64,000 nt of DNA from assembly GCF_003097495.1 (NCBI RefSeq), contig NZ_QEOP01000001.1, positions 434,001 through 498,000 of the forward strand, read 5' to 3'. How positions within the stretch are numbered: position 1 is the stretch's first letter; the number at the start of each line of letters is the position of its first letter. The notes below the pieces were generated by a model. It saw only the letters and a list, made by a program, of their open reading frames with translations. It was not told the origin of the DNA and ran no database searches. A program made the translations under genes and the position numbers. The stretch comes from Amnibacterium flavum. GTDB taxonomy: Bacteria > Actinomycetota > Actinomycetes > Actinomycetales > Microbacteriaceae. Below, piece after piece: positions 43,591 to 59,241 of the stretch.

Positions 43591-44834
43591 GCGGCGACCT
43601 CGTCGCGGATGATGCGTCCCCCCTGGAAGACGGCGGAGACGGGCCGCGTCGTGCGGAAGGGCCGCATGCTCAGCGGGTCGTCGTCGATGAGCACCGCGTC
43701 GAAGACGTACCCCGCGGCGATCCGCCCGTGGGTATCAGCGAGACCCATGAGCTCAGCACCTCCGAGCGTCGCGGCGAGCAGCACCTCGGGGGCGGGCATC
43801 CCCGCGTCGTGGAGCAGGGCGAGTTCTTCGAGGTTGCGTCCCTGGACGACCAGGTCGCTGCCCACCGCGATGCGGACCCCCGCTGCGCGTGCGACCTCGA
43901 CCTGGCGGCCGCTCCGCGAGTGGACCTCGCGGACCCGGGCGGCGGCGCTGGCCGGAAGGAGCCCCTTGGCAGCGAGTTCGGCGAGCTCCTCCACCACGAC
44001 GAGGGTGGGCACCAGCCACGCTCCGCGTGCCGCCATGAGGTCGGCCTGACGCTCGTCGAGGAACATGCCGTGCTCGATCGAGCGAACTCCGGCTTCGACC
44101 GCAGCCGTCAATCCGGCGCCGCCGTACGCGTGGGCTGTGACGGGGATGCCCGCACGGGTCGCCTCTTCGATCGCGGTGCGGATCTCGGCGTCGGTGAACT
44201 CGGATGTGTCGGGGTGGTCGCGGACCGTGGACAGGAGGCCGCCGGTCGTGCAGAGCTTGATCCAGTCGACGCCCGCGCGGGCCTGACGACGGATCGCCTT
44301 GCGCATCTCCTCGACCCCGTCGACGAGGTAGTCGCCTCGACCGGCGTACTCGGGGACGAGGAAGCCGCCGAGCATCTCCCGGCCGATGCTCGGCAGATAG
44401 CCGTCGGAGTGGCCGCCGGTCTGGCTGAGCGGGGGACCCGACACGCGCATCGTCGGGCCGGGCACCAGACCATCGGCGATCCCCTCGCGGATACCCGCAT
44501 CCGACGTTGCCACGTCGCGCACCAGGGTGATACCCATGTCGAGCACGCGCCGCGCGTTGGCGGCGACCTCGAGTGTCCACCGCGTCGCCGTCATAGCCCC
44601 CATGAGGAACATGTCGTCGGTGAAGCAGCCGAGGTGCAGGTGGCAGTCGGCGAACCCCGGCATGAGGTACCGGCCGCGACCGTCGACCCGGACCACGCCG
44701 TCGGGGACGGGCGTCCCCTCCGGCTGGATGATCCCGTCGATCACGACGACTGTGGTGGCGGGGCCGAAACGGCCGGTCTCATCGAGGGGACGGACTCGCT
44801 CGAGTACCAGCGATCCGGGTGTCGGGGAGGTCAT
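43587..44834 (-). CDS. Amidohydrolase (imidazolonepropionase/prolidase-like)
   Basis: Metal-dependent hydrolase of 415 residues with a TIM barrel. Ligands are visible: H65 and H67 (DCHLHLG), K193 (WIKLCTTGG), H235 (TAHAYGG), H255 (SIEHGMFLD) and D327 (GSDLV), which fits a binuclear centre bridged by a carboxylated Lys. It resembles the cyclic-amide or dipeptide hydrolases of this superfamily. First gene of the hydantoinase operon. There is no ribosome site; a promoter TTGACA-N18-GAAACT ends six bases before the ATG and is overlaid by a TetR-type operator. Substrate unknown. Confidence 0.92.
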   Translation of the reverse strand: MTSPTPGSLVLERVRPLDETGRFGPATTVVVIDGIIQPEGTPVPDGVVRVDGRGRYLMPGFADCHLHLGCFTDDMFLMGAMTATRWTLEVAANARRVLDMGITLVRDVATSDAGIREGIADGLVPGPTMRVSGPPLSQTGGHSDGYLPSIGREMLGGFLVPEYAGRGDYLVDGVEEMRKAIRRQARAGVDWIKLCTTGGLLSTVRDHPDTSEFTDAEIRTAIEEATRAGIPVTAHAYGGAGLTAAVEAGVRSIEHGMFLDERQADLMAARGAWLVPTLVVVEELAELAAKGLLPASAAARVREVHSRSGRQVEVARAAGVRIAVGSDLVVQGRNLEELALLHDAGMPAPEVLLAATLGGAELMGLADTHGRIAAGYVFDAVLIDDDPLSMRPFRTTRPVSAVFQGGRIIRDEVAA

Positions 44835-44840
44835 GCTCGG

Positions 44841-44880
44841 AGTTTCCCAACCGCCTCAAACACCTGTCAAGCGATAGGTA
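44841..44880. promoter_or_regulatory. Promoter and TetR-type operator O2 of the hydantoinase operon
   Basis: On the minus strand TTGACA (44870-44865), 18 bases and GAAACT (44846-44841) form a promoter that ends six bases before the amidohydrolase ATG. The operator O2 at 44861-44880 (CACCTGTC, AAGC, GATAGGTA) shares CCTGTCAA with O1 at 45693 and has the same arm layout. It covers the -35 box. Confidence 0.65.
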
Positions 44881-44934
44881 TTGCCGCGGGAACATGTTTA
44901 CAAAACGGAAACAGCGCCGTATTTTTCCGCGCTC

Positions 44935-45666
44935 TTATCCGGCTGAACCGGTCGGGAGAACGGCGGTCGGCTCACGGAGCACGAACGCCGCACCGAACGG
45001 ATCGCGTGCCAGAACGGTCCCGTCCGAACGCCGCTCGCAGACCCCTCCGTCGCGGATCACGGCGTCGACGGTCTCGGCGTACGTCGTCGCAGCCAGGACG
45101 GGAATCCACGCTCCGCCGCTCCCCCGCAGCACCCGCGCATCCACTCCTCCCGCGTCGAACCGCACCCCGCCAATCGCCCCGGTGCGCGGTCGCCAACCGA
45201 GGGCCTGCTCGAGGAACTTCCCGGTCGCGTCCGGATCCGGCGTCTGGAGTTCGGCGCCGATCAGCCTCCCCGCTCCTGTCGCTCCGCCGAGAGGCGGGCT
45301 GGTCTCGGCTACCCCGAGTCCCGTTCCATCGGGGGCGAGCACGTAGGCGAGGCTGCCCCAGCCGGACAGCGGATACGGCTCGTGCCCGATCCGGCCTCCG
45401 GCGTCGACCGAACGGCGGAACAGTGCCGCGGTGTCTGCGGTGCCGACGTACAGCGTCCACGTCGAGGGCCCCTTGTGAGGCGGGATCTCCTCGGCCCCAG
45501 CAACCACCGTGCCGTCGGCGTCGCGCAGGAGGTGGTACGGGAGCCCGTTGTGCTCGATGGCGTCGTCCATGCGCCAGCCGAACACGCTCCGGTAGAACTC
45601 GGCCGTCCGTGTCAGGTCGGTGCTGATCACATCCATCCAGTGCAGCCGTGTCAGTGTCTCGATCAC
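44935..45666 (-). CDS. Two-domain VOC-family protein, leaderless
   Basis: Protein of about 243 residues with two vicinal-oxygen-chelate modules, the first starting LHWMDVISTDLTRTAEFYRS and the second near GRLIGAELQTPDPDATGKFL. It is a paralogue of the VOC gene at 39147, and the pair flank the hydantoinase operon. GTG 45666 is supported by a promoter TTGACA-N18-CACACT that ends six bases upstream; no ribosome site is present. It is divergent from a TetR gene and operator O1 sits on its -35 box. Confidence 0.82.
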   Translation of the reverse strand: MIETLTRLHWMDVISTDLTRTAEFYRSVFGWRMDDAIEHNGLPYHLLRDADGTVVAGAEEIPPHKGPSTWTLYVGTADTAALFRRSVDAGGRIGHEPYPLSGWGSLAYVLAPDGTGLGVAETSPPLGGATGAGRLIGAELQTPDPDATGKFLEQALGWRPRTGAIGGVRFDAGGVDARVLRGSGGAWIPVLAATTYAETVDAVIRDGGVCERRSDGTVLARDPFGAAFVLREPTAVLPTGSAG

Positions 45667-45672
45667 CTGGCG

Positions 45673-45712
45673 AGTGTGACCGGCCACCCGATTTCCTGTC
45701 AATCGACAGGAA
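45673..45712. promoter_or_regulatory. Promoter of VOC gene and perfect TetR operator O1
   Basis: On the minus strand TTGACA (45702-45697), 18 bases and CACACT (45678-45673) precede the VOC GTG by six bases. O1 at 45693-45712 is TTCCTGTC, AATC, GACAGGAA, with perfect 8-bp arms, and covers the -35 box. It lies between the VOC gene and the divergent TetR gene at 45774, whose possible -10 box is CAGAAT at 45762-45767. Confidence 0.75.
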
Positions 45713-45773
45713 CGGGTCCGCGACTGCCGTCCGTCTCCCGTCGCGGAACCGACCGGCGTGACAGAATCGGGCG

Positions 45774-46478
45774 ATGACGAGCGAGAGCGCACGTGTTCGG
45801 TCGGGACGCCCGCGCCTCGTCGACCGCGGTGACGATCAGCTCGACCCGCACGACCAGATCCTCGCCGCAGCCGCGGAGCTCTTCGCCGAGCGCGGCTACG
45901 GGGCCACGACGACGCGGGCGATCGCCGAGAAGGTCGGCATCCGACAGGCATCGCTGTACTACCACTTCGCCGGCAAGGACGAGATCCTCCTCGAGCTGCT
46001 CGAAACGTCCGTGAGGCCCAGCCTCGCGTACTTGACCGATCTTCTGCGGCACCCCGACCCCGCTGTCGCGCTCGCGGCGCTCGCCATCCTCGACGTCGAC
46101 ACCCTGATCGCCACGCCCCACAACATCGGCACCCTCTACCTCTCGCATGAGGTGCTCGAGCCTCGCTTCGAGAGCTTCCGCCAGGCGCGCGAAGCGCTGC
46201 GGGAGGCGTACAGCGAGTTGTGCGGGCGGATCGGCACCCACCTCGACGCCGATTTCCTCGGAGCGTGCTGCCTCCAGCTCGTCGAGCTCGTGATCACGCT
46301 CCGGCGCGACGGCGAGCCCCCGGCGTCGACGGCGATCGACATCGCCGCGGCCTGCCTCTCGGTCGTCGGCGTCTCACCGCCCGGCCCGGCGCTCGACCAG
46401 GGCATCCGGGTCGCCGGCGAGCTCCGCGCGAGACTCACCGCACAGCAGCCCGGCGAATCCTCGGCCACCGACGCGTGA
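45774..46478 (+). CDS. TetR regulator 1 of the nitrogen-compound island
   Basis: Repressor of 234 residues. The HTH is TTTRAIAEKVGIRQASLYYH, preceded by ILAAAAELFAERGYGA, with an all-helical ligand domain. It is a clear paralogue of the TetR at 55021: the recognition helices differ little (GIRQASLYYHF against GLRQPSIYHHF), and the next segment (KDEILLELLETSVRPSL) also matches. The likely operators are O1 at 45693 and O2 at 44861. CAGAAT six bases before the ATG suggests a leaderless message. Ligand unknown, presumably a pathway intermediate. Confidence 0.92.
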   Translation: MTSESARVRSGRPRLVDRGDDQLDPHDQILAAAAELFAERGYGATTTRAIAEKVGIRQASLYYHFAGKDEILLELLETSVRPSLAYLTDLLRHPDPAVALAALAILDVDTLIATPHNIGTLYLSHEVLEPRFESFRQAREALREAYSELCGRIGTHLDADFLGACCLQLVELVITLRRDGEPPASTAIDIAAACLSVVGVSPPGPALDQGIRVAGELRARLTAQQPGESSATDA

Positions 46479-46895
46479 TCAGAGCGTGTCGCTGACCACA
46501 CTCACGATCTTCCAGCGGCCGTCGAGCCGGACGAGCGAGAAGATGTCGACAGCGGGTGTGCTCGTGCCGTCGGGAAAGTCCATGCTGAAGCGCTGCAGGA
46601 CCGAGGCGACATCGCCGACAACCGTGAAGCTGCGTTCACCGGGGGTCTCGACATACCCGTGCACGGCGAGATCGTCGCGCATCTGGGCGCGGGCATAACC
46701 CTCGTTGTCGAATACCCGGATGCGTTCGTCGCCGGGGAACAGCCGCAGGGCGAGCACAGCACCGGTCACATAGCCCGACGCGAACCGCGCCCAGTCCGGC
46801 TCTCCGCCCTCGTCGAAGGAGAGCGCGGCGTAGCTGTCGTCGATGATCGCCGCGATCTCCGCTTCGACACGGGTGGAACCGCCGGCCTCAGTCAC
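46479..46895 (-). CDS. NTF2-like (SnoaL/DUF4440-type) protein
   Basis: Cytosolic cone-fold protein of 138 residues: an N-terminal helix (EAEIAAIIDDSYAALSFDEG) and the strand-rich end SLVRLDGRWKIVSVVSDTL typical of the NTF2-like group. It may be a small enzyme or ligand binder; no catalytic residue is evident. GTG 46895 overlaps the end of the alpha/beta hydrolase gene by 8 bases, so both are cotranscribed. It converges on TetR 1, the two stops being directly adjacent (46478/46479). Confidence 0.8.
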   Translation of the reverse strand: MTEAGGSTRVEAEIAAIIDDSYAALSFDEGGEPDWARFASGYVTGAVLALRLFPGDERIRVFDNEGYARAQMRDDLAVHGYVETPGERSFTVVGDVASVLQRFSMDFPDGTSTPAVDIFSLVRLDGRWKIVSVVSDTL

Positions 46896-47988
46896 GCACC
46901 GTCACCGTCGCCAGTCCTGTCGCGTCCTCGAGCACGCGATCGAGCCGCCTGTCCTCGAGAAGCGCCGACGCGCGGGCGTCGCTCTTCAGCACCGCATCGA
47001 AATGCGCCGTAGTGAGGCCCCGCCACAGCTCCTCCGTCGGTCCCTCCGGCGCGAGCTCGTCGAACGGGCGACAGACCCGGGCGACGACCTCCCAGTCGGT
47101 GCCGGGGTAGGTCTCGGCGCAACGATCGAGGAACGCCCGCATCCACTCGTGCCCGGTCTCGATGTTGTCGACGAAGTGATTGTGGTCGGCATCGAGGAGG
47201 ACGACCATCCGACGCGTATCCGGCACCAGGTCGCGGTAGAGCTCGAACTGACCGAAGAGCGGCAGCATGCTGTCCCTCGAACCGACGAGCATGAGCGTCG
47301 GGACGCCGTGGTCGATGGGGCCGATCTTGTTCAGCTTGGTGGTTGCGCGCTTGCGGCCCTCACGGAACGTGGATCCTCCGCCGGGGCACATCGGCACCGC
47401 CGCTTTGATGCGCGGAGCGACGACCGGGCCGATGAGCGACGTCCATCCCCCGTAACTGGCCCCGGTGATCCCGATCTGCTCATCGGCGACGGGCAGGGTG
47501 TCGAGCGCGTGCTGGACGAGGAAGGGGACATCGCCGCGGCGGTTGTCCGCGATCGAATCCATGTGCGCGGCGAGGGCGGTCTCGTCACCGACACCCGCCT
47601 GCGAGGCGAAGAACTCGTCGACCTCGGGAGCGGTGCTCCCGAGGATGTCAGGGGCGACGACGAGATAGCCGTGCGAGGCGAGATGAGTAGCGACGAAGGT
47701 GGCCTCGCGCCGGAAGCCGGCCCAGCCGTGCACGTTGAAAACGACGGGGAACCGTCCGTCGAGCAGGGGCGCGTCGCGCACGGCCGCCTGGCGGGCGGGG
47801 TTGTCCGGATCCCAGTCGCTCGAGAAAGTGTCCTGGGTCTCCGGGTCGATGTCCCGACCCGCGATCGAGTCGACGGACGGGTAGTAGATCTCGACCGGGA
47901 TATCGCGGCCGCGCGGCTCGTCGAGCCAGTACTCGGTCCGCACTCCGACGGGGTGGGTACCGCGACTGAACGGGTCGTAGGTGGTCAT
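46888..47988 (-). CDS. Alpha/beta hydrolase (dienelactone hydrolase/acetylhydrolase-like)
   Basis: Serine hydrolase of 366 residues. The nucleophile elbow is GITGASYGGWTS, the oxyanion strand VVFNVHGWAGFRREATFVAT, and the late His is in LDADHNHFVDNIE. The layout resembles platelet-activating-factor-acetylhydrolase-like and dienelactone hydrolases. No signal peptide. ATG 47988 has GAAGGA upstream. It follows the allophanate hydrolase C-terminal gene by 89 bases on the same strand and may be the tail of that operon. An ester or amide substrate is likely but unknown. Confidence 0.88.
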   Translation of the reverse strand: MTTYDPFSRGTHPVGVRTEYWLDEPRGRDIPVEIYYPSVDSIAGRDIDPETQDTFSSDWDPDNPARQAAVRDAPLLDGRFPVVFNVHGWAGFRREATFVATHLASHGYLVVAPDILGSTAPEVDEFFASQAGVGDETALAAHMDSIADNRRGDVPFLVQHALDTLPVADEQIGITGASYGGWTSLIGPVVAPRIKAAVPMCPGGGSTFREGRKRATTKLNKIGPIDHGVPTLMLVGSRDSMLPLFGQFELYRDLVPDTRRMVVLLDADHNHFVDNIETGHEWMRAFLDRCAETYPGTDWEVVARVCRPFDELAPEGPTEELWRGLTTAHFDAVLKSDARASALLEDRRLDRVLEDATGLATVTVRD

Positions 47989-48077
47989 GTCGGTCCTTCG
48001 TTCTCTGCGGCTGCGTTGCGCATCCGTTGCGGGGTGGAGCAAAGAAGGTGGAACGGGTGACAGGAGAGCTCAGGTGG

Positions 48078-48479
48078 TCAGCGGGCGGTCGGCGGCGTCC
48101 CGAGCGACGCTCGGTAGGCGCGCCAGCCGCCGAACGCCGTGATATCGACCGCGGAGTCGAGCGCGTAGGGCTCGACGATGAACCCCGGAACGACGCGACC
48201 GTCCGCGAGGACGAGCTTGCCGATGCCGAGCGGGGACGGGATCTCGGCGACGAACGAGCCGAAGGCCGCGTCGTCCAGCGCCCAGAGTTCGACCGCGATG
48301 GACGCGCCGCCGTTCGCGACCCGGACGAGGCCCGGCTTCGGCGGAACCGTTTCGAGAGCGTAGAACCGGTACTCGGCCGCCGTCTCCGTCTCCTCCTCGA
48401 AGACGGCGTCGCGCTCGGTGAGCTGCGGATTGAGCGGTTGTCCGCGCAGGTGGGCCCCGACGACGGCGATAGTGATCAT
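48078..48479 (-). CDS. Allophanate hydrolase C-terminal domain as a separate gene
   Basis: Protein of 133 residues matching the C-terminal domain of AtzF-type allophanate hydrolases, which has a gamma-glutamylcyclotransferase-like fold. The family start is recognisable as VVGAHLRGQPLNPQLTERDA and the middle as YRFYALETVPPKPGLVRVAN. In known fused enzymes this domain removes the carboxyl group of the intermediate after the amidase step. Here it is a free-standing protein whose ATG overlaps the amidase stop (ATGA at 48476-48479), so the two are made together and probably form a complex. Confidence 0.9.
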   Translation of the reverse strand: MITIAVVGAHLRGQPLNPQLTERDAVFEEETETAAEYRFYALETVPPKPGLVRVANGGASIAVELWALDDAAFGSFVAEIPSPLGIGKLVLADGRVVPGFIVEPYALDSAVDITAFGGWRAYRASLGTPPTAR

Positions 48480-49765
48480 TCGAGCAGCTCCCCTGCGATG
48501 GTGGCGAGTCGGCGGTCCGAGAACGCGGGTCCGATGAGCTGCACGCCGAAGGGAAGCCCGTCGACCGTCCCCGCGGGAACCGCGAGCGCAGCCAGGTCGA
48601 GCAGGTTGGCGAAGTTGGTGAAGCGGCCCATCGAACCGTTGACCCCGAGCGGGTCCGCCTCGATCTCGGCGAGAGTCGGGTGCCGCACCGTTGTCGGCAG
48701 CAGCAGCGCGTCGATGTCGCCGAACAGTCGGCGCGCGACGACCTTGTACCGGTCGATGCGTTCCATGTCGGCGAACAGATCGGCGGCTCGCAGGTCGGCC
48801 GCTCCGAGGATGATGCGGCGAACGGTCGGGTCCACCTCATCCGGGTGAGCGGACACGAAGGCGCCGACGGCCGCGTAGCGCTCGGCGACGTAGGCGCCGC
48901 TGTACAGCAGGGCTGCTGCGTCGAGCAGAGGCTGGATGTCGACGAGGCGCACCGTGGCGCCCGCGTCGGTCAGGGACCGGACCGCATCGGCGAACGCCTC
49001 GGCCCATCCGGGGGCGAGGTCGCCGAGATCGAGTGGATCGGGCACCCCGATCACCCATCGCGCGGGGTCGGCCCTATCGGGGTCGGGCATCTCGCGGCTC
49101 AGGGGATCGGCCTCGTCGACGACCGTGATGATCTCGGCGGCCAGCCGGGCCAGCGCCAGGTCGGCCGCCATCACACTGACGGTCTCGTTGCTGCGGCAGG
49201 CGGGCACGACTCCGACCGCCGAAACCGTGCCCTTGGTCGGTTTCACCCCGACGAGTCCGCAGAGCGCGGCGGGCACCCGGCCGGACCCCGCGGTGTCGGT
49301 GCCGAGCGCGATGTCGGCCGCGCCGATGGCGACAGCGACCGCCGATCCGCTCGAGGATCCACCGGAGATCCGGGCGGGGTCGGTCGGGTGGCGGACAGCG
49401 CCGTAGGGGCTGCGGCTTCCGACGAGCCCCGTCGCGAACTGGTCGAGGTTCGTCGTCCCCAGCACGACGGCGCCGGCGTCGATGAGCAGCCGCACGACTG
49501 TGGCGTCGGCTTCGGGGTCGTAGGCGAATGCGGGGCACGCGGCGGTCGTCGGGATTCCTGCGACGTCGATGTTGTTCTTGACCGCCAGCAGTCGGCCGGC
49601 GAGTGGCAGGTCCGCGCCGTCCTGAGCAGCCGCCAGCGCGGCGGCGACCTCGGCGGTCACCTCGTCCTCGGGGCGGAGCGTGATCCAGGCCTCCGGCCGA
49701 TCCGCGACGGCGATGCGCCGGTACCGTTCGGCGACGAGCAGCTCGGCGGCGGAGCGTGCACTCAT
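48476..49765 (-). CDS. Allophanate hydrolase, amidase domain only
   Basis: Amidase-signature enzyme of 429 residues cleaving allophanate. The catalytic triad is K63 (LLAVKNNIDVAG), cis-Ser S137 (ISGGSSSGSAVA) and nucleophile S161 (GTDTAGSGRVPA), with the expected 24-residue spacing between the two Ser. A fused AtzF is about 600 residues; this one stops after the amidase domain and the rest is the next gene. It is coupled to the carboxylase gene upstream (ATGA at 49762-49765). Amidases of broad specificity look alike, but the context makes allophanate the best call. Confidence 0.9.
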   Translation of the reverse strand: MSARSAAELLVAERYRRIAVADRPEAWITLRPEDEVTAEVAAALAAAQDGADLPLAGRLLAVKNNIDVAGIPTTAACPAFAYDPEADATVVRLLIDAGAVVLGTTNLDQFATGLVGSRSPYGAVRHPTDPARISGGSSSGSAVAVAIGAADIALGTDTAGSGRVPAALCGLVGVKPTKGTVSAVGVVPACRSNETVSVMAADLALARLAAEIITVVDEADPLSREMPDPDRADPARWVIGVPDPLDLGDLAPGWAEAFADAVRSLTDAGATVRLVDIQPLLDAAALLYSGAYVAERYAAVGAFVSAHPDEVDPTVRRIILGAADLRAADLFADMERIDRYKVVARRLFGDIDALLLPTTVRHPTLAEIEADPLGVNGSMGRFTNFANLLDLAALAVPAGTVDGLPFGVQLIGPAFSDRRLATIAGELLE

Positions 49766-52700
49766 GCGGGGATCCTCTCGAGTACGAGGAGACCCGCGCC
49801 GGCGCGGACCTGGTCGCCGAGCGATACGGCGACCTCGACGATCCGGGCCGGATACGGGGCGAGCACGGGGGCCTCCATCTTCATGGCCTCGAGGGCGAGC
49901 AGGCTCTGGCCCGCCTCGACGAGGTCGCCTACTCCCACGTCGATGCGGACGACGCTCGACACGAACTGCGCCTCGACCGCCTCGCATCCATCGGGGATCA
50001 CCAGTGCGGGCGCCTCGGCGAGGACGGGCTCCTCGACGACCCTGTCGAACTCGCCCGCCTCCCGCCATGCCTCGCGCTCGACCGCGAAGGCGGCGGACTG
50101 ACGCTCGCGGAACGCGGCGATCGAGTCCGCCTCGCGGGCGAGGAACGCCCGGTGCTCGGCGAGCCCGAACTCCCCATCCTCGATGCGGACGGCGAGTCGA
50201 CCAGCCGCCATGTCGGCGCGCATCACCCTCAGTTCCTCGGAGCTGACGGGATACCAGCTGATCCGGTCGAAGAAGCGCAGAAGCCACGGCACGCCCGGCT
50301 CGAACGGGCCGCGTTGCACGAGCGTCGACCAGACCTGGATGGTCCGCCCGACGAACTGGTAGCCGCCGGGTCCCTCCATGCCGTAGATGCAGAGGAAGGC
50401 GCCGCCGATCCCCACCGCGTTCTCGGGGGTCCAGGTGCGGGCCGGGTTGTACTTGGTCGTGACGAGTCGATGCCGCGGATCGATCGGCGTCGCGACGGGT
50501 GCGCCGAGGTAGACGTCGCCCAGGCCGAGCACCAGGTACTCGGCGTCGAAGAGCACCCGGTAGACGTCGTCGACACTGTCGAGACCGTTGATCCTCCGGA
50601 TGAACTCGATGTTCCACGGCGTCCACGGCGCATCCGAGCGGACACCGTTCATGTACCGCTCGATCGCCTCGCGCGTCGCCGGGTCGTCCCAGGACAGCGG
50701 GAGATGCACGGTGCGACTCGGCACCTTCAGCTCATCGACCCCGGGCAGCTCGCGATCGAGTCGCAGGACCACGTCGACGAGCTCCTCGATCGCGACCGAG
50801 CCGGGATCGAAGTGGATCTGCAGCGAGCGGATGCCGGGAGTCAGGTCGATGATGCCGGCAGCCATCGCGGGATCGACGCGGTCGAGGTGATCGCGCAGAG
50901 ACTCGGCAAGCGCATGCACCGTCATGCGGCTCTCGAGTTCGAGGCTCATCGGGCCGTACTCGACGAGCAGGTTCGTGTCGCCGCTGCGCCGAGCGGTCAG
51001 GGCGGGCCGATCGGCGCGTTCGTGCTGTCGGGCGAGCACTCCTCCGTCGGAGACCGCCGCACGGTCGGCACGCGGCAGAGCAGCAGGATCGTTCCGCACC
51101 TCGGCGGCCTGCGCATCGCCGATGGGCACGAAACGCACCCGGTCGCCGGGGCTCAGCTGGCCGAGCTTCCACAGCTGCCCGCTCGCCACGGTCGCCGGGC
51201 AGGTGAAGCCGCCGAGACTGGGCCCGTCGGGGCCGAGCAGGATCGGCAGGTCGCCCGTGTAGTCGACCGCGCCCACCGAGTACGGGGTGTCGTGGATGTT
51301 CGACGGATGCAGTCCCGCTTCGCCGCCGTCCTCGCGCGCCCAGGTCGGCTTCGGCCCCATGAGCCGGACGCCGGTGCGGGCCGAGTTGAAGTGAACCTCC
51401 CACGCGGTGTCGTAGAAGACGTCCATGTCATCGGGGGTGAAGAACTCGGGCGCCGCGTGCGGACCCTCGAGGGCGGGCAAGACCCATTCGTCGGGGAACT
51501 CGGGTCGATCGGCGAGCGCCACGGGTGCGGCCGCGCCCTGCGCGGTCGCGCCGAGGAGGACGATGTCGCCGACGGCGAGCGGTCGACCCGACGGACCGCC
51601 GATGCCGCCCAGGTCGAAGGTGCTGGCCGAACCGAGCACGAGAGGCGCATCGACACCTCCGGCCACGAGCAGGTAGGTCCGCATGCCGCGCCGGGGTGTC
51701 CCGATCGAGAGCACTCCACCCGCGGGGACCTGCAGCGGCACCCACTGCTCGACTTCGGCTCCGTCGATCTCGACGAGCGTCGGCGCTCCGGTGATCATGA
51801 CCGTGACGTCGGTGAGGAATCGCAGCGTCGGTCCCGTCGCAGTGATCTCGAGTCCGGGCGCGCCCTCGGCGTTGCCCAGCGCGACGTTCCCGAGGCGGAA
51901 GGACCGGTCGTCCATCGGGCCCGACGGCGGGATGCCGACGTGCCAGAGTCCGAGCCGCCCCGGCCAGTCCTGCACGGTGCAGAGCGTTCCCGCCCGGACG
52001 ACCTCGAAGCGCGGGCGGCGATCGGTGACACCGTCGAGTGTTGCCGTGCTGTGCTCGGCGGCCAGCACGGACGGGGTGTCAGCCGCCGCGGCCAGCAGCC
52101 CCAGATTGGTGGCGACGCCGTCGATCCTGCTGCCGTCGATCGCGGCCCGGAGCGCGGCGAAGGCGGCATCCCGGGTCTCGGCGTGGACGATCAGCTTTCC
52201 GAGCAGCGGGTCGTAGTGGGCGGAGACGTCGCTGCCGACCGAGATGCCGGTGTCGAATCGCACGCCCTCGGGTGTGACGACCCCCGAGATGCGGCCCGTG
52301 CTCGGGAGACCGCCCAGGTCGGGCTTCTCCGCGTAGATCCGCGCCTCGACCGCATGCCCCCGCGGGGCGGGCACCGTGGGGAGTTCGGTCTTGCCGAGGC
52401 CCAGTCGCACCATCCACTCGACGAGGTCGACTCCGTGCACCTCCTCGGTGACGGGGTGCTCGACCTGGAGACGGGTGTTCACCTCGAGGAAGGCGACCTC
52501 CTCGCGAGCGGCGTCGTAGACGAATTCGACGGTGCCGGCCGATCGGTAGCCGACCTGCTCGCACATCCGCAGCGCGGCGGCGTGCATCGTCTCGCGCACC
52601 GAGGGCGGCAGGGCGGGCGCCGGGGATTCCTCGATGACCTTCTGGTTGCGGCGCTGGAGGCTGCAGTCGCGGTCGCCGACGACGACGACCCCGCCGAGGC

Positions 52701-53346
52701 CGTCACCGAACACCTGCACCTCGACGTGGCGGGCCCGTTCGACGAGGCGCTCGAGGAACACGTCGGCCGAGGCGAAGTTGCTCGACGCGAGCCGGCGCAC
52801 CTGATCCCAGGCAGCGGTCAGCTCGTCGGCGTCGCGACAGGCGCGCATGCCGATGCCACCGCCGCCCGCGCTCGCCTTGAGCATGACCGGGTAGCCGATC
52901 GCGTCCGCCTGGGCGAGCGCGTCGTCGAGCGAGTCGAGCAGCCCGGTACCGGCGAGAAGCGGCACGGATGCGGCGATCGCGGCACCTCGGGCCGAGTGCT
53001 TCGCCCCAAAGAGCTCGAGCTGCTCCGGTGTCGGACCGAGGAAGACGAGACCCGCCGCTTCGACGGCACGAGCGAACGGGGCGCTCTCGGAGAGGAAGCC
53101 GTACCCCGGGTGGATGGCGCCGGCGCCGGCGTCGATGGCCGCGGCGATGATGCGGTCGTGGTCGAGGTAGGCGCGTGGATCCTCGCCGAGGTACACCTCG
53201 TCGTCTGCGGTGCGCAGATGCAGAGCGCCGCGGTCCGCGTCGGTGAATACCGCGATGCTGCGCAGCCCCATGCCTCGCAGCGTGCGCGCGACCCTGACGG
53301 CGATCTCACCGCGGTTGGCGATGAGGACCGCGTCGAATCCGCTCAT
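49762..53346 (-). CDS. Urea/guanidine carboxylase (biotin-dependent)
   Basis: Multidomain enzyme of 1194 residues. A biotin carboxylase half with ATP-grasp comes first (VLIANRGEIAVRVARTLRG, KASAGGGGIGMRACRD, FLEVNTRLQVEHPVTEEVHG); the KipA/KipI-type carboxyltransferase domain follows (GTLCTVQDWPGRLGLWHVGI near residue 470, then IEFIRRINGLDSVDDVYRVL). A biotin carrier domain ends it, with the biotinylated Lys at about 1156 in LALEAMKMEAP. Classic annotation is urea carboxylase. Enzymes of this type found next to a DUF1989 pair have been shown in other bacteria to carboxylate guanidine, so guanidine is the better guess. Coupled to both neighbours by ATGA overlaps. Confidence 0.93.
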   Translation of the reverse strand: MSGFDAVLIANRGEIAVRVARTLRGMGLRSIAVFTDADRGALHLRTADDEVYLGEDPRAYLDHDRIIAAAIDAGAGAIHPGYGFLSESAPFARAVEAAGLVFLGPTPEQLELFGAKHSARGAAIAASVPLLAGTGLLDSLDDALAQADAIGYPVMLKASAGGGGIGMRACRDADELTAAWDQVRRLASSNFASADVFLERLVERARHVEVQVFGDGLGGVVVVGDRDCSLQRRNQKVIEESPAPALPPSVRETMHAAALRMCEQVGYRSAGTVEFVYDAAREEVAFLEVNTRLQVEHPVTEEVHGVDLVEWMVRLGLGKTELPTVPAPRGHAVEARIYAEKPDLGGLPSTGRISGVVTPEGVRFDTGISVGSDVSAHYDPLLGKLIVHAETRDAAFAALRAAIDGSRIDGVATNLGLLAAAADTPSVLAAEHSTATLDGVTDRRPRFEVVRAGTLCTVQDWPGRLGLWHVGIPPSGPMDDRSFRLGNVALGNAEGAPGLEITATGPTLRFLTDVTVMITGAPTLVEIDGAEVEQWVPLQVPAGGVLSIGTPRRGMRTYLLVAGGVDAPLVLGSASTFDLGGIGGPSGRPLAVGDIVLLGATAQGAAAPVALADRPEFPDEWVLPALEGPHAAPEFFTPDDMDVFYDTAWEVHFNSARTGVRLMGPKPTWAREDGGEAGLHPSNIHDTPYSVGAVDYTGDLPILLGPDGPSLGGFTCPATVASGQLWKLGQLSPGDRVRFVPIGDAQAAEVRNDPAALPRADRAAVSDGGVLARQHERADRPALTARRSGDTNLLVEYGPMSLELESRMTVHALAESLRDHLDRVDPAMAAGIIDLTPGIRSLQIHFDPGSVAIEELVDVVLRLDRELPGVDELKVPSRTVHLPLSWDDPATREAIERYMNGVRSDAPWTPWNIEFIRRINGLDSVDDVYRVLFDAEYLVLGLGDVYLGAPVATPIDPRHRLVTTKYNPARTWTPENAVGIGGAFLCIYGMEGPGGYQFVGRTIQVWSTLVQRGPFEPGVPWLLRFFDRISWYPVSSEELRVMRADMAAGRLAVRIEDGEFGLAEHRAFLAREADSIAAFRERQSAAFAVEREAWREAGEFDRVVEEPVLAEAPALVIPDGCEAVEAQFVSSVVRIDVGVGDLVEAGQSLLALEAMKMEAPVLAPYPARIVEVAVSLGDQVRAGAGLLVLERIPA

Positions 53347-53957
53347 CGGCTCTCGCTCGCCGCGCCGACCACGAGGCGGACGGGGGTGGGGTTGAAGCCG
53401 TTGCACGGGTTGTTGATCTGGGGGCAGTTCGAGATGACGGCGAGCACGCGACGCTCGGCGCGCAGTGTGACGGACAGTCCCGGCGCCGAGATGCCGTCGA
53501 CGATGCCGAGGGAACCGTCGGCCTCGACGGGCACGTTCATGAACCAGTTGACGTTCGACACCTGATCGCGCTTTCCGAGTCCGTGCCTGCCCAGCTCGGT
53601 GAGGAAGTTCTCGACGCAGGCGTGCTGCGCGAACGTGTGGTGGCCGTATCGGAGCGTGTTGGACTCCCGGGAGCACGCACCTCCCAGGGTGTCGTGCCGG
53701 GCGACTCCGGTCGCCACGACGGTGAGGAGCGGAACGGACTCCGCGGTGAGGAGCACCGAGCCCTGCACCAGGTAGACGTTCTCCTGCTCGAGCAGGGTTG
53801 CCGGCGCGCTGTAGGCCTGCTGCAGGTCGTCGGCGTCGTAGGCGAGGAAGTCGACGGCCTGATTGCCGTCGAGGTCGATGATCTCGAGGGTCTCACCCGG
53901 CTCGAGGACCCTCGACCACGACGCTCGCGCGGGGAGGAGCACGTCGGCGGCGGTCAT
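53343..53957 (-). CDS. DUF1989 protein, urea-carboxylase-associated 2 (probable carboxyguanidine deiminase subunit)
   Basis: Protein of 204 residues of the DUF1989 family. Recognisable are LEIIDLDGNQAVDFLAYDAD, HHTFAQHACVENFLTELGRH and the end VISNCPQINNPCNGFNPTPV, where Cys residues may bind metal. In characterised systems the DUF1989 pair forms a carboxyguanidine deiminase making allophanate and ammonia. It is coupled to the carboxylase and to its partner by ATGA overlaps. Confidence 0.9.
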   Translation of the reverse strand: MTAADVLLPARASWSRVLEPGETLEIIDLDGNQAVDFLAYDADDLQQAYSAPATLLEQENVYLVQGSVLLTAESVPLLTVVATGVARHDTLGGACSRESNTLRYGHHTFAQHACVENFLTELGRHGLGKRDQVSNVNWFMNVPVEADGSLGIVDGISAPGLSVTLRAERRVLAVISNCPQINNPCNGFNPTPVRLVVGAASESR

Positions 53958-54847
53958 CGGGTTGCTCCGTTCGTGGCGGGCGGGGTATCTCCGCGCAGCA
54001 GCAGATAGCTCTCGGTGTTGAGGTAGGCGCGCTCGCCCTCCGGGCTCGCGCTCCACTCCGGATCGGCGGGCGAGGTCGGGACGCCACGCGTCGCGGTGAT
54101 CTCGAGACGCCCGCAGGCGTACTCCGACCGCGGGTCGAGAGGGTGCGGTGCATTCGCGATGAGCAGGATGACGGGCATCTCGATCAGCAGCGTGACGGCG
54201 GCGCCGGCGGCGGCGGATCCGGTGAAGCGCGGGCTGCCGTCCTCCTCGACGACGACACCCTTGAAGAAGCTCAGCGCCGGGGAGATGTCGCGCGGTCCGA
54301 GCCCTCGCTTCGCCCCGGCGAGCTTCTGCAGTTCGCGACCCGCCGGCGACGGACCGTACACGCCTCCGTTGCCGTATCGGCGCTCGTTGCGGGCGGCGGA
54401 CGAGACCCCGAAGACCGCGTCGTGCTGCCCGGAGCCGTCGGCGACGACCCGGGCGAGAACGCGGCCCTGATCGGAGAGCAGCAGCTGCCCCGCCGCCGAG
54501 TACACCTGCCACTGCACCTTCACGGTGTCGGCCACGTTCAGCCGTTCCTGCGGCTCCGACGCGTTGTAGAGCAGCACCGAGGCGCAGGCGTCCCCGTCGA
54601 TATCGCGCAGCGTCACGACCGTTCCCCGAGCCAGGACCGCCGAGGTGTAGCTGCCTCCTGCGACGACCTCGGCCCAGACGAGTCCCGCTGCACGAGAGGG
54701 GTCGGCGTTCGGGTAGACGGCCGCAGGGAGCCAGGGCTGCGACTCGGCGACCGCGCCGCCCTGGGCCCTGGCGTGGGCCTTGGCCCCGGTGGTGTCCGCC
54801 GTGCTCGAGGGTGCTGCGCTGCTGTCGGCGTGAGGTGCGTCGGTCAC
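53954..54847 (-). CDS. DUF1989 protein, urea-carboxylase-associated 1 (probable carboxyguanidine deiminase subunit)
   Basis: Protein of 297 residues, partner of the DUF1989 protein encoded next. After an Ala/Ser-rich start of about 35 residues the domain shows TVVTLRDIDGDACASVLLYN, a central GNGGVYGPSPAGRELQKLAG and the end YACGRLEITATRGVPTSPAD. Together with its partner it probably turns carboxyguanidine into allophanate. GTG 54847 is led by GGGAGGG. First gene of the operon; operator O3 lies 53 bases upstream. Confidence 0.9.
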   Translation of the reverse strand: MTDAPHADSSAAPSSTADTTGAKAHARAQGGAVAESQPWLPAAVYPNADPSRAAGLVWAEVVAGGSYTSAVLARGTVVTLRDIDGDACASVLLYNASEPQERLNVADTVKVQWQVYSAAGQLLLSDQGRVLARVVADGSGQHDAVFGVSSAARNERRYGNGGVYGPSPAGRELQKLAGAKRGLGPRDISPALSFFKGVVVEEDGSPRFTGSAAAGAAVTLLIEMPVILLIANAPHPLDPRSEYACGRLEITATRGVPTSPADPEWSASPEGERAYLNTESYLLLRGDTPPATNGATR

Positions 54848-54899
54848 TGCGCCACCCTCCCTTTCGTCGGGCTATGAGATCGGTATGCACCGAGCGCAC

Positions 54900-54919
54900 T
54901 TTCTATTGCGCAATAGAAA
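54900..54919. promoter_or_regulatory. Perfect TetR operator O3 of the DUF1989/carboxylase operon
   Basis: TTTCTATTGCGCAATAGAAA is a perfect 20-bp palindrome upstream of the DUF1989 operon. On the minus strand its centre supplies TTGCGC, a possible -35 box about 18 bases before TGCATA. It shares arms with O4 at 55768. A second small palindrome (CACATC-C-GATGTG, 54925-54937) lies beside it. Confidence 0.8.
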
Positions 54920-54976
54920 TACATCACATCCGATGTGTCGACCGATTGAACTTCGTGTTTCGAATGTGTTTCAGCT

Positions 54977-55000
54977 CGTCCGCCGCGCTCCGGGCGGACG
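54977..55000. other. GC-rich hairpin in the divergent spacer
   Basis: CGTCCGCC (54977-54984) and GGCGGACG (54993-55000) are perfect 8-bp inverted arms around eight bases. It lies upstream of the TetR 2 -10 box (TACTTT, 55009-55014) between the two divergent units. It could insulate them or be a protein site. No T-run follows. Confidence 0.4.
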
Positions 55001-55020
55001 CCCCGGTGTACTTTGGCGGG

Positions 55021-55713
55021 ATGCCACGCACCGTCGGCCGCCCGCGCGGGTCTGAGTCCCCGACCGGTCTCGGAGCGACGCAGGACATCCTCTTCGCCAG
55101 TGCGAAGCTCTTCGCGCGCTCCGGTTACGGCAGCACCACCACCCACGCGATCGCCGAGGCGGCCGGACTCCGCCAGCCGAGCATCTACCATCACTTCGGC
55201 GGCAAGAAGGAGATCCTCCTCGCACTCCTGCTCGGCACCGTCCAGCCGTCGCTCGATGTGGCCGAAGCCCTCCTCGCGGACCCCCGCCCGGCTCCCGCCC
55301 GGCTGTGGGCGCTCTGCGCATCCGACATCGCACTGCTGAGCGGGGGCGAGGTCAACCTCGGCGAGCTCTACCTGCTCCCCGAACTCGGCGATCCGATCTT
55401 CGCCCCATTCCACGGCCTGCGGGATCAACTCGTCGCGGCGTATCGACAACTCGTCAACGCGTGCGACCACCCCGACCCGGAACTGGGAGCATCACTCGTC
55501 ATCGGCCTGGTCGAGAGCATCATCCTGCTGCGCCGCCGGGCGCCCGAGAGCATCGACGAGAACACGCCTGCCGCATTCGCGGATGCTGCGCTGCGGATGC
55601 TCGGCCTCGAGGCCCCGATCGTGAAGCGCGCCGGAGAGCAGGGACGCCTCCTGATCGGCGACGTCCGCGCCATCGCCGACGCCTGGTCAGGCGTATCGGG
55701 CGCTCCCGCCTGA
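55021..55713 (+). CDS. TetR regulator 2 of the nitrogen-compound island
   Basis: Repressor of 230 residues. An AT-hook-like start (GRPRGSESPTG) leads to the HTH TTTHAIAEAAGLRQPSIYHH. It is paralogous to TetR 1 at 45774 in HTH, the following helix (KKEILLALLLGTVQPSL) and overall length. The perfect palindromes O3 and O4 flank its gene, in front of the DUF1989 operon and the Dpp importer, so it probably represses both. ATG 55021 has TACTTT six bases upstream and no clear ribosome site. Ligand unknown. Confidence 0.92.
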   Translation: MPRTVGRPRGSESPTGLGATQDILFASAKLFARSGYGSTTTHAIAEAAGLRQPSIYHHFGGKKEILLALLLGTVQPSLDVAEALLADPRPAPARLWALCASDIALLSGGEVNLGELYLLPELGDPIFAPFHGLRDQLVAAYRQLVNACDHPDPELGASLVIGLVESIILLRRRAPESIDENTPAAFADAALRMLGLEAPIVKRAGEQGRLLIGDVRAIADAWSGVSGAPA

Positions 55714-55720
55714 CGAAACA

Positions 55721-55744
55721 CGATTGAAATACACCGTTCAATCG
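55721..55744. promoter_or_regulatory. Inverted repeat CGATTGAA-N8-TTCAATCG
   Basis: A perfect 8-bp inverted repeat with an 8-base spacer lies eight bases after the TetR 2 stop. The same CGATTGAA octamer occurs at 54943-54950 and 55851-55858, so three of four copies precede transcription units of this island. It may be a second regulator's site or part of a promoter; it is too AT-rich to be a strong terminator. Confidence 0.4.
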
Positions 55745-55767
55745 GACGGAACAATGGGCCGCTTTAC

Positions 55768-55787
55768 TTTCTATCGGCGGATAGAAA
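55768..55787. promoter_or_regulatory. Perfect TetR operator O4 of the Dpp importer operon
   Basis: TTTCTATC (55768-55775), GGCG and GATAGAAA (55780-55787): perfect 8-bp arms. It lies about 80-100 bases upstream of the binding-protein start and matches O3 in both arms except one position per arm. Confidence 0.8.
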
Positions 55788-55869
55788 CCCGGCCTCAGTG
55801 ACGGGTGCGCTCCACCCCCTCCGCTGAAGCGCCACGTCTCCCCGTCCGTCCGATTGAAGGATGTCCCGC

Positions 55870-57414
55870 ATGCGCCGCACCGTCCTGCTCACCATCGCCC
55901 TCGCCGCCAGCACGGCGATCGCCCTCACCTCCTGCGCCTCCGGAGGAGGCGGTGGGTCATCCGACTCGGCCTCCCCGCATCCCGGAACCGTCGTCTGGGC
56001 CCGCCCCGCCGCCATCGACGGCTGGGAGGGCGACAAGTGCATCTCGAGTTCCGGCCCGACCAACGCCGTCGTCTTCGATTCGCTGCTGCGCATCCAGACG
56101 CCGGATGGCAGCGGGCTGGTCCCCGGTCTCGCCTCCGAGTGGAGCTACGACGAGTCCACCTACACCTACGACCTCACGATCCGAGACGATGCCGCGTTCA
56201 GCAACGGCGACCCGGTGACCGCCGACGACGTGATCTTCTCGTTCGACGAATGGAAGGCGGGCCCGATCTCGGGCATCCTCTACGCATCGGTCGCCTCCGT
56301 CACCGCAGTGTCCGACAAAGAGGTGCAGGTCGTCATGGCACAGCCCGACACCTTCCTTCCCAACCTGCTCGCCTGGTGCAACTCGAACGTCTACCCGGCC
56401 GACTTCGCCGGCATGAGCCGCGACGACTATTTCGCGAACCCGATCGGCGCCGGCCCCTACGTCGTCTCCGACTGGTCCGACCCGGGCGGAACCACCGAGA
56501 GCATCTCGCTCGTTCCCAACGAGCACTTCTGGGGTTGGGAAGGCGAGACACCCGCCGTCACCGAGCTGACGATCGAGACCATCGTCGACCCGTCGCAGCG
56601 GGCACTCCAGTTCCAGTCGGGTGACATCGACATCCTCGAGCAGGTCGACCAGGCGACCGTCGCCCAGATCGGCGAGGATCACGCCGTCCCGACTCTCCCC
56701 TCGATCAACATCGGCATCGTCGCGAACACCCTCGCCGGCCCCGCCAGCGACCCCGTCGTCCGCGAGGCGATCTCGAAGGCCATCGATCGCGACTCCATCG
56801 CCGGCGCCCTCGGCGGCGGCACCGAGGCCGCCACCGGCATCCTCCCGATCAACGTCCCGGGAACCGCCGAACCGACAGAGCCGTACACCTTCGACCTCGA
56901 CGCGGCGAAGGACCTGATGGCGAGTTCCGGATCGCCGGACGGACTGAGCATGCGCTACATGTACGACCCGTCGAACGCTGACTCCGACACCACCGCTCAG
57001 ATCCTCGTCACCCAGCTGGCCGAGATCGGAATCGATCTCGAACTCGAACCGACCGACACCGCGACGATGAACGGACGACTCGCCGACGGCGACTTCGACC
57101 TCGCACGCAGCGGCGCGGGAGCCATCTCCCCGACGATCTTCGACCCGATCGGGCTGATCCTCGCCACCAGCTACGTCTACTCGGGCGTCGACGCGACGGT
57201 CATGACGGACAACTTCGTGACAGGTACCTCGACCACCGACGACGCCGTCGTCGAACAGGCCGTCGTCGCCATCCAGGACGACGCGCTGAAGCAGAACGGC
57301 TACATCGGCGTGATCGACCTGGCGACGAACTGGGCGGCTCAGTCCTACATCACGGGCTTCGTGCCGATCCAGTACATGGTCTACTACACCGACAAGCTCG
57401 GCTTCGCGGAGTGA
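55870..57414 (+). CDS. ABC importer binding lipoprotein, family 5 (DppA/OppA-like)
   Basis: Substrate-binding protein of 514 residues. A lipoprotein signal has lipobox LTSC with Cys22 and a Gly/Ser linker. The mature part has the family 5 layout (YDLTIRDDAAFSNGDPVTAD, VREAISKAIDRDSIAGALGG). ATG 55870 has AAGGA eight bases upstream; ATG 55861 would overlap that site. First gene of the importer operon. Family members bind peptides, nickel, opines or other cations; here the island context suggests an N-rich compound. Two Cys in the body (CISSSG and WCNSN) may form a disulfide. Confidence 0.93.
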   Translation: MRRTVLLTIALAASTAIALTSCASGGGGGSSDSASPHPGTVVWARPAAIDGWEGDKCISSSGPTNAVVFDSLLRIQTPDGSGLVPGLASEWSYDESTYTYDLTIRDDAAFSNGDPVTADDVIFSFDEWKAGPISGILYASVASVTAVSDKEVQVVMAQPDTFLPNLLAWCNSNVYPADFAGMSRDDYFANPIGAGPYVVSDWSDPGGTTESISLVPNEHFWGWEGETPAVTELTIETIVDPSQRALQFQSGDIDILEQVDQATVAQIGEDHAVPTLPSINIGIVANTLAGPASDPVVREAISKAIDRDSIAGALGGGTEAATGILPINVPGTAEPTEPYTFDLDAAKDLMASSGSPDGLSMRYMYDPSNADSDTTAQILVTQLAEIGIDLELEPTDTATMNGRLADGDFDLARSGAGAISPTIFDPIGLILATSYVYSGVDATVMTDNFVTGTSTTDDAVVEQAVVAIQDDALKQNGYIGVIDLATNWAAQSYITGFVPIQYMVYYTDKLGFAE

Positions 57415-57424
57415 TCCCCCGCCG

Positions 57425-58366: not shown

Positions 58367-59241
58367 GCGCCGACACCTCCGCCATCTACGCTGCGGGCGG
58401 CGAACCGTCCGCGGCGGACGCTCCGCCGATCGGCGGCAAGCTCAAGATCAGGGCCGACAAGGTCGTCATCGGGGTCTCCGTGCTCCTGCTGATGCTCGTC
58501 GCGGGATACATCGTGCCCGCCGTCACCGGATTCACCGAGCTGGCCCAGGACCTCGGGAACCGCCTTCAGCCGCCGTCGACAGCTCACCCGTTCGGAACCG
58601 ATGATCTGGGACGGGACGTCTTCGTCCGCGCTCTCTACGCCGCACGTCTCGATCTGCCGCTCGCCATCGCCGGCGCCCTGCTCCCTGCAGCGATCGGCAC
58701 GACCATCGGCCTGATCGCCGGGTACTCGGGACGCATCGTCGACACGGTCCTGATGCGGATCGGCGACTTCGTGCAGGCGTTCCCGTCCTACGTCCTGCTC
58801 GTCGTCGTCGCCTACATCGTGGGACCGGGGATCGGCTCGTTCCTCCTCGCCGTCGGCGTCATCTCGTGGGTCGCGTACGCGCGGCTGATCCGATCGCAGG
58901 TCCTCGTCATCCGGGAACTCGATTACGTGCACAGCGCGCGTCTGGCGGGCCTGGGTCGCGGACGGGTGATGACACGGCACGTCCTCCCGAACGCGCTCTC
59001 GCAGACCCTGGTCTTCATGGCATCGGATGCGACGCTCTCCCTCCTCTTCCTGTCGGGAATCTCGTTCCTCGGTCTCGGTATCGCCGCGCCGACGCCGGAA
59101 TGGGGCGGAATGATCAACGAAGGGCGCCTGTACCTCGCGACCGCCTGGTGGCTGACGACTTTCCCGGGTCTGATGCTCGTGCTCGCGGCCGGAGCCTTCG
59201 TGCTCATCAGCGACGGCCTCGATGACAGGAACCGCGCGTGA
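58363..59241 (+). CDS. ABC importer permease 2 (DppC-like)
   Basis: Membrane subunit of 292 residues. The DppC-type motif HPFGTDDLGRDVFVRALYAA follows the first helix; the docking loop is DYVHSARLAGLGRGRVMTRH. GTG 58363 overlaps the stop of permease 1, and its own stop overlaps the ATPase start (GTGA at 59238-59241). Four genes of this importer are therefore one operon. Confidence 0.95.
   Translation: MSADTSAIYAAGGEPSAADAPPIGGKLKIRADKVVIGVSVLLLMLVAGYIVPAVTGFTELAQDLGNRLQPPSTAHPFGTDDLGRDVFVRALYAARLDLPLAIAGALLPAAIGTTIGLIAGYSGRIVDTVLMRIGDFVQAFPSYVLLVVVAYIVGPGIGSFLLAVGVISWVAYARLIRSQVLVIRELDYVHSARLAGLGRGRVMTRHVLPNALSQTLVFMASDATLSLLFLSGISFLGLGIAAPTPEWGGMINEGRLYLATAWWLTTFPGLMLVLAAGAFVLISDGLDDRNRA

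Follow-up and report, generated by a model that had tools for sequence, protein, structure and literature searches.

In ten actinobacteria, a gene for the repressor AmtR has been described together with genes for an amino acid permease, two unknown reading frames, a urea carboxylase and an amidase, and GlnR is reported to be the master regulator in Mycobacterium smegmatis (PMC4222082). AmtR of Corynebacterium glutamicum recognizes the box CTAT-N6-ATAG and also binds between cshA and hyuB, while the S. avermitilis type of AmtR has the consensus TAtCTGTCa-n2-cGACAGATAT (PMC8864220). Here we describe a locus of Amnibacterium flavum, within a stretch of 64,000 nucleotides (contig NZ_QEOP01000001.1, positions 434,001 to 498,000; "the window"), where two AmtR-family repressor genes, tetR1 and tetR2, lie among AmtR-like boxes, an operon for a biotin carboxylase annotated as a urea carboxylase, and a unit encoding an amidohydrolase and HyuA and HyuB. 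As the pairing of AmtR with a urea carboxylase has already been published (PMC4222082), the setting is of a known kind.

With the M. smegmatis regulon the locus shares an AmtR-family repressor, the enzyme set (there listed as an amino acid permease, urf1/urf2, urea carboxylase and amidase) and, judging here from half boxes, possibly the involvement of GlnR. It differs in that one genome combines two AmtR lineages whose boxes have different flanks, the operon contains no permease gene and is instead adjoined by a Dpp importer, a HyuAB/amidohydrolase unit has a box of its own, and we read the carboxylase as a guanidine carboxylase. Two of the boxes, O3 and O4, carry exactly the CTAT-N6-ATAG of C. 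glutamicum AmtR, for which a link with HyuB has likewise been reported (PMC8864220), although the acidic residues of its ligand domain differ from those of the window proteins. The CTGTC core of the S. avermitilis consensus recurs in O1 and O2, in the latter with one change. Operons under guanidine riboswitches also encode a guanidine carboxylase, a carboxyguanidine deiminase and an allophanate hydrolase (PMC12186494, PMC11410670); unlike them, the window has AmtR boxes, and a scan with all Rfam families gave no match over cut-off in it.

We think it fairly probable that this is a GlnR/AmtR-controlled guanidine-nitrogen regulon, accompanied by a second AmtR that took over the amidohydrolase/HyuAB unit. 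The family membership, boxes, lineages, signature residues and co-occurrence reported below were computed; from them we infer binding, the pairing of repressors with boxes, guanidine as the substrate in this organism and the action of GlnR. TetR2, of clade B, would bind O3 and O4 and repress both the guanidine-assimilation operon (guanidine carboxylase, the carboxyguanidine deiminase UAAP1/2, and allophanate hydrolase) and a Dpp-type importer. TetR1, of clade A and parted from its usual operon type, would bind O1, O2 and probably O5, repressing the VOC gene, the amidohydrolase-HyuA-HyuB unit and a second Dpp importer. Under nitrogen shortage GlnR would activate at O3 and O5 through a half box just upstream, and AmtR would act as a local, substrate-linked brake.

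Two AmtR lineages in one genome

A preliminary description of this DNA had placed two TetR genes at 45774 and 55021, and both are found there. In each product the TetR helix-turn-helix (PF00440) is joined by near-full-length homology to AmtR, the combination by which we assigned membership. The nearest solved structures are in both cases AmtR of M. smegmatis and C. glutamicum, at expect values (E) of 5e-28 to 3e-25 for TetR1 (next family, 7e-11) and 1.6e-35 to 1e-32 for TetR2 (next family, 1e-10); the top match of TetR2 is the AmtR entry 5e57, at 1.6e-35. By these matches TetR1 and TetR2 are AmtR-family repressors. A search of the genome with TetR2 gave no third gene of this type, the next match after the two standing at 1e-6. 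Their recognition helices, called near-identical earlier, have 7 of 11 residues in common, so that wording was generous.

AmtR-type proteins were sought in the family at E<=1e-25 (matches in 33 of 349 genomes) and in the class at E<=1e-30 (matches in 42 of 394), and the contexts of all 34 family matches and all 44 class matches outside our genome were examined. The tree comprises 82 proteins (78 relatives, the two window proteins and two PDB chains) and was made by a quick method, with support from the SH-like approximate likelihood ratio test (SH-aLRT) only. We take the sampled family f1 to be the Microbacteriaceae, f26 the streptomycetes, and f11 the mycobacteria and corynebacteria. TetR1 falls in clade A (26 rows, support 97) and TetR2 in clade B (8 rows, support 100), to which a 16-row group of relatives with large genomes is joined (support 91). 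Each of the 25 other clade-A genes sits at the 3' end of a carboxylase operon and points the same way, and all seven other clade-B genes of the family are divergent from their carboxylase operon, as tetR2 is. TetR1 is here a clade-A gene away from a carboxylase operon of its own kind; it converges on two genes trailing the clade-B operon. Three of eight congeners searched have one of the lineages, clade B in two of them (L063, L064) and clade A in the third (L065), always at the operon belonging to that lineage.

The preliminary description had proposed that a single AmtR gene was duplicated in this genome and diverged with its operators, splitting one pathway into two cross-talking modules. 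That both proteins are AmtR-family members, 39% identical over 188 amino acids, with similar boxes 10 kb apart, is in favor of this. The two nevertheless fall into separate, supported clades that span several families, and constraining them to form one group costs 114 log units (approximately unbiased (AU) test, p 7e-174, on a quick tree); the congeners with one or the other lineage (three of eight searched) have it at the operon of that lineage. On these grounds a local duplicate was rejected, and the notion of one divided pathway goes with it, as each lineage has a carboxylase operon of its own in other genomes. We consider that account highly improbable. The same distribution suggests instead that two pre-existing systems meet here, TetR1 and TetR2 belonging, by this tree, to two old AmtR lineages. 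Two distant AmtR-like genes outside both clades (L061, L062) adjoin an amidohydrolase gene (37%) and a Dpp importer.

Boxes and their predicted pairing with the repressors

The four palindromes described earlier, O1 to O4, lie at the positions given for them, ahead of the VOC gene, the amidohydrolase/HyuAB unit, the DUF1989-carboxylase operon and the Dpp importer, and they recur above chance in the window and the genome. Their palindromic base pairs number 9/10, 6/10, 10/10 and 9/10, respectively, O2 being the weakest. CTAT-N6-ATAG or CTGTC-N4-GACAG occurs exactly at O1, O3 and O4, and the core of O2, CTGTC-N4-GATAG, is a single base off the second of these. In the window, CCTRTC-N4-GAYAGG is found at two places, O1 and O2 (0.02 expected), and TTTCTAT-N6-ATAGAAA with at most one mismatch also at two, O3 and O4 (0.00 expected). 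Across the 3.57-Mb genome CTAT-N6-ATAG has three places, namely O3, O4 and a further site, O5 (C2:486719), with two in the reversed control; YCTRTY-N4-RAYAGR has six, O1 to O5 and C2:23505, again with two in the reversed control. O5 adjoins another Dpp-type importer, which lies downstream of it with its binding protein starting at L017:5082. The sixth place, C2:23505-23520 (L206), reads CCTGTTCGTCGACAGG.

The earlier division of the sites into two classes beside two regulators holds: O1, O2 and also O5 have a C..G flank, O3 and O4 a T..A flank. Within their class, O3 has half-sites TATT-AATA and O4 TATC-GATA. O1 and O2 were also said to cover -35 boxes. TTGACA does lie within both, on the minus strand and pointing at the VOC and amidohydrolase genes, but a promoter scan gave no sigma-70-like pair using it; a -35 role is no more than plausible.

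To compare relatives, boxes were defined as CTRT-N6-AYAG with at least 7 of 11 pairs; some of the loci hold an AmtR gene without a carboxylase. Such sites occur at 24 of 25 clade-A loci, against 5.6% of shuffles, at 4/7 (family) and 13/17 (large-genome) clade-B loci, at 17/24 mycobacterial-type and 5/8 other AmtR loci, and at one of six UAAP loci from genomes without AmtR. The strict box search passed over sites in three of the seven clade-B family loci, which the T..A consensus with one mismatch recovered. Allowing that one mismatch, TTTCTRTY-N4-RAYAGAAA is present in the gap between tetR and UAAP1, as O3 is, in six of the seven (the seventh, L113, has two mismatches), and past the tetR gene, as O4 is, in four.

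Among sites with at least 8 pairs, a C..G flank is found at 18 of 24 in clade A and at none of 41 in clade B and the mycobacterial type (Fisher 3e-11, kinship ignored). From the flank types of the lineages and those of O1 to O5, we predict that TetR2 acts on O3/O4 and TetR1 on O1/O2/O5. The flank base pair mostly separates the sites of the two lineages, which argues for limited cross-talk, and two lineages with different flank base pairs provide a natural test of how TetR-type repressors stay separate in one cell.

Val54/Ala54 and Tyr63/His63 (TetR1 numbers) fully separate 24 clade-A from 23 clade-B rows when L070, the next branch outside TetR1 and L112 in clade A, is excluded. We nevertheless assigned the choice between C..G and T..A to no single recognition-helix residue, on account of three proteins: these positions hold Val and Tyr in C. 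glutamicum AmtR, whose box flank we take to be of the T..A type, Val and His in M. smegmatis AmtR, and Ala and Tyr in L070. The recognition helix of TetR2 (RQPS) has Pro at residue 59 (TetR1 numbering), a position that is Ala in all 23 clade-B relatives.

A guanidine signature in the carboxylase

A published criterion for guanidine carboxylase requires Asp at position 1584 of the Kluyveromyces lactis enzyme, while Asp at 1330 sets guanidine apart from urea (PMC11410670); Asp for guanidine and Asn for urea carboxylase are likewise given in PMC12186494. We located both columns by counting along the alignment with 5i8i. The window carboxylase has Asp702 opposite K. lactis Asn1330 and Asp also at the 1584 position, and thus both signature residues. 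Asp at 1330 is found in 62 of 62 carboxylase alignments from AmtR loci, the window included, and in 68 of 72 after the addition of 13 loci; the four exceptions are Met, all from genomes without AmtR. At 1584, Asp is found in 70/70. The "urea carboxylase" of the window therefore looks like a guanidine carboxylase, and the operon like one for consuming guanidine and not urea.

In the contrary account, the operon is a urea amidolyase system as in the published M. smegmatis AmtR regulon, with no role for guanidine. The annotation models do carry urea names, the published regulon has been described as one of urea metabolism (PMC5137332), and our genome has no match to urease alpha, so that a urea route could be needed. 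Urease, however, is also present in 28 of 36 genomes with both AmtR and UAAP2, M. smegmatis AmtR stayed on its DNA in the presence of urea (PMC4222082), UAAP1 and UAAP2 belong to PF09347, the family within which the carboxyguanidine deiminase subunits are defined, and Asp at 1330 disagrees with a urea carboxylase under the published criterion (PMC11410670). We judge the urea account improbable and prefer guanidine assimilation.

Distribution of AmtR, UAAP2 and guanidine riboswitches

In the class sample of 394 genomes, AmtR (E<=1e-30) is found in 42, UAAP2 (TIGR03424, E<=1e-50) in 42, and both in 36 (Fisher 2e-38, kinship ignored). Six of the 42 UAAP2 genomes lack AmtR. Guanidine-I riboswitches over cut-off were found in three of these six and in none of the 36 genomes bearing AmtR (Fisher 0.002). 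Each of the three has a match within about 2.5 kb upstream of UAAP2, that in L153 being borderline (63.0 bits, at the cut-off, and unlisted by cmscan). Of the remaining three, L155 and L157 are without a carboxylase at the locus and L156 is of the Met type. We left out of the count the matches below cut-off in G673 (53 bits), G717 (40 bits) and G541 (34 bits), which are distant from the carboxylase locus. The genome-wide scans for guanidine-I and guanidine-III used Infernal's stricter filters, by which weak matches are lost, and guanidine-II (RF01068) was covered by the all-Rfam scans of selected loci and the window. Guanidine-I (RF00442) has no match in our genome under those filters, nor in the window.

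Guanidine-III riboswitches exceed the cut-off in 23 of the 36 genomes with AmtR and in none of the other six, on another contig than UAAP2 or hundreds of kb from it. Our genome has one (55.5 bits, C2:1348701-1348764; L165:7702-7765, minus strand) directly before a gene for an SMR exporter, so that the cell probably meets guanidine.

GlnR-like half boxes

GlnR has the consensus gTnAc-n6-GaAAc, an a-b repeat (PMC10704036). We sought the half box GTNAC-N6-GAAAC, with at most one mismatch, within 150 bp of the AmtR boxes at 44 loci of clades A and B, and found it near 40 of 58 boxes, against 3-4% of mononucleotide shuffles. The counts are 14/25 in clade A (24 loci), 6/10 in the clade-B family group (7 loci) and 20/23 in the large-genome clade-B group (13 loci). 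Where the AmtR box faces the carboxylase operon, the half box lies some 30-95 bp upstream, along the direction of the operon. O3 has such a half box, with spacing and orientation as in the relatives, and O5 has a perfect one (0 mismatches) upstream, in both cases single. These half boxes fit the double control by GlnR and AmtR published for M. smegmatis.

The ligand domain and the inducer

Conservation was counted in 64 rows with a carboxylase at the locus and 14 without, in TetR2 numbering. Asp102, Tyr117, Phe130, Arg134 and Tyr141 are invariant in the 64 (as are some leucines and a glycine), position 121 is Glu in 63 and Asp in one, and position 165 is Glu in 63 and a gap in one. Asp102, Glu121 and Glu165 are kept in TetR1, TetR2 and M. 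smegmatis AmtR. Among the 14 rows away from a carboxylase, 13 have Asp102, 11 have Glu121 with two more having Asp, and 13 have Glu165, so that the acidic residues also occur in genes outside such operons. At the three positions C. glutamicum AmtR reads Glu, Ile and Met, and its sister row L143 Glu, Thr and Leu. As the change in these two amounts to one evolutionary event, the conserved acidic residues as a putative guanidinium site are a lead, no more.

No inducer for AmtR outside Corynebacterium is named in the available portions of the cited reports, and in PMC4222082 urea and amino acids did not release M. smegmatis AmtR. Among the listed matches of a literature search, whose titles and abstract starts were covered, none linked AmtR with guanidine, which is weak evidence as the papers were those under open licences. 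We put forward guanidine as a bold candidate for the inducer, since four observations point to it: the residue that marks the carboxylase, the co-occurrence, the lack of guanidine-I riboswitches in genomes with AmtR, and the conservation of the acidic residues.

Alternatively, the repressors might sense nitrogen status through the PII protein GlnK, and neither guanidine nor a pathway metabolite. GlnK releases AmtR in C. glutamicum (PMC8864220), and TetR1 and TetR2 are homologous to that protein. The three acidic residues of the 64 operon-linked AmtRs, however, are Glu, Ile and Met there, so that the input may differ; the GlnR-like half boxes may already supply the nitrogen-status input; and nitrogen control in M. 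smegmatis stays intact without AmtR (PMC4222082). We regard sensing through GlnK as unlikely, though it deserves to be kept in view.

With guanidine as the signal, we would tentatively, and at somewhat less than even chances, go further. The carboxylase-linked AmtR may be a guanidine-responsive repressor, binding guanidinium or carboxyguanidine through an acidic and aromatic pocket, and thus an actinobacterial protein counterpart of the guanidine-I riboswitch. In that case the "AmtR urea regulon" published for mycobacteria and streptomycetes would be one for guanidine. Our genome would have two such sensors with distinct operator flanks, one of them taken over for an amidohydrolase/HyuAB route, possibly a source of guanidine or urea-type nitrogen. 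If this is true, a nitrogen regulon in many actinobacteria would be reassigned, the control of guanidine use without a guanidine-I riboswitch would be explained, AmtR perhaps doing the job of the riboswitch in many of them, and a protein sensor for guanidine would be on offer.

Several observations weigh against the guanidine regulon or its assignment to two repressors. Six of the 42 genomes with AmtR-type genes lack UAAP2. Four AmtR-less enzymes (L152, L153, L154, L156) have Met at 1330, neither Asp nor Asn, and three of them are near guanidine-I matches, so that Asp is not the sole guanidine-linked state. With 86.5 bits, the SMR protein falls short of the SugE cut-off of 126 bits. The remaining six clade-A sites of the 24 have T..G (4) or T..A (2) flanks, L070 has T..A boxes, and several clade-B boxes have mixed flanks. 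The half-box matches at O2 are in the opposite orientation, and at O1 and O4 no GlnR-like half box is present with up to one mismatch. The nearest relative of the amidohydrolase is 42% identical and comes from one other genome of 349 at E<=1e-60.

Neighboring genes and minor observations

Table 1. Features of the A. flavum locus, in window positions except for O5 (C and L numbers are our contig and locus handles)
Feature	Position	Strand	Basis or setting
HyuA and HyuB, ATP-dependent hydantoinase/oxoprolinase family	39839..43590	-	PF01968, PF05378, PF02538
Amidohydrolase related to Xaa-Pro dipeptidase	43587..44834	-	PF01979; NF051886 217 bits (cut-off 500)
O2, AmtR box, C..G flank, CCTGTC-N4-GATAGG	44861..44880		26 bp ahead of amidohydrolase ATG
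VOC/glyoxalase-like gene behind O1, start codon inferred	44935..45666	-	PF00903 (on longer frame)
O1, AmtR box, C..G flank, CCTGTC-N4-GACAGG	45693..45712		between VOC gene and tetR1
TetR1, AmtR-family repressor, clade A	45774..46478	+	best PDB matches, tree
Small protein	46479-46895	-	no Pfam match; co-directional with operon
Alpha/beta hydrolase	46888-48042	-	co-directional with operon
Allophanate hydrolase C-terminal domain, own gene	48078..48479	-	PF21986 AH_C 175 bits
Allophanate hydrolase, amidase part (AtzF), start codon inferred	48476..49765	-	TIGR02713 522 bits (cut-off 511)
Biotin carboxylase, annotated urea carboxylase, guanidine-carboxylase signature, start inferred	49762..53346	-	TIGR02712 1657 bits (cut-off 1304), full-length
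UAAP2 / DUF1989, probable second deiminase subunit, start codon inferred	53343..53957	-	TIGR03424 294 bits (cut-off 285)
UAAP1 / DUF1989, probable carboxyguanidine deiminase subunit	53954..54847	-	TIGR03425 264 bits (cut-off 206); PF09347
O3, perfect 20-bp palindrome, AmtR box CTAT-N6-ATAG, T..A flank	54900..54919		between UAAP1 and tetR2
GlnR-like half box GAAAC-N6-GAAAC	54957..54972	-	upstream of O3; one mismatch to GTNAC-N6-GAAAC
TetR2, AmtR-family repressor, clade B, divergent from carboxylase operon	55021..55713	+	PDB match, tree
O4, AmtR box, T..A flank	55768..55787		past tetR2, ahead of Dpp-type importer
Dpp-type ABC importer: binding protein, two permeases, double ATPase	55861..60779	+	SBP_bac_5, BPD_transp_1 twice, ABC_tran
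O5, AmtR box, C..G flank	C2:486718-486733 (L017:5019-5034)		upstream of second Dpp-type importer

All four window copies of CGATTGAA (54943, 55721, 55737 on the minus strand, and 55851) lie inside 916 bp around tetR2, where 0.78 would be expected in the whole 64 kb, and positions 55721-55744 form the inverted repeat CGATTGAA-N8-TTCAATCG. The element is absent from the seven clade-B family loci; its copies around tetR2 are possibly the site of a second regulator.

A wider search of genome contigs (patterns from one sequence) gave 35 loci with amidohydrolase relatives, none above 42% identity and none with HyuA or HyuB alongside at 1e-10. HyuA and HyuB score 454 and 244 bits against the caprolactamase models, under the cut-off of 1000. 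In L157 (8094-14935), a UAAP1/UAAP2/allophanate hydrolase operon without a carboxylase match has HyuA (38%) and HyuB (30%) relatives in line, and a HyuAB-type enzyme may replace the biotin carboxylase there.

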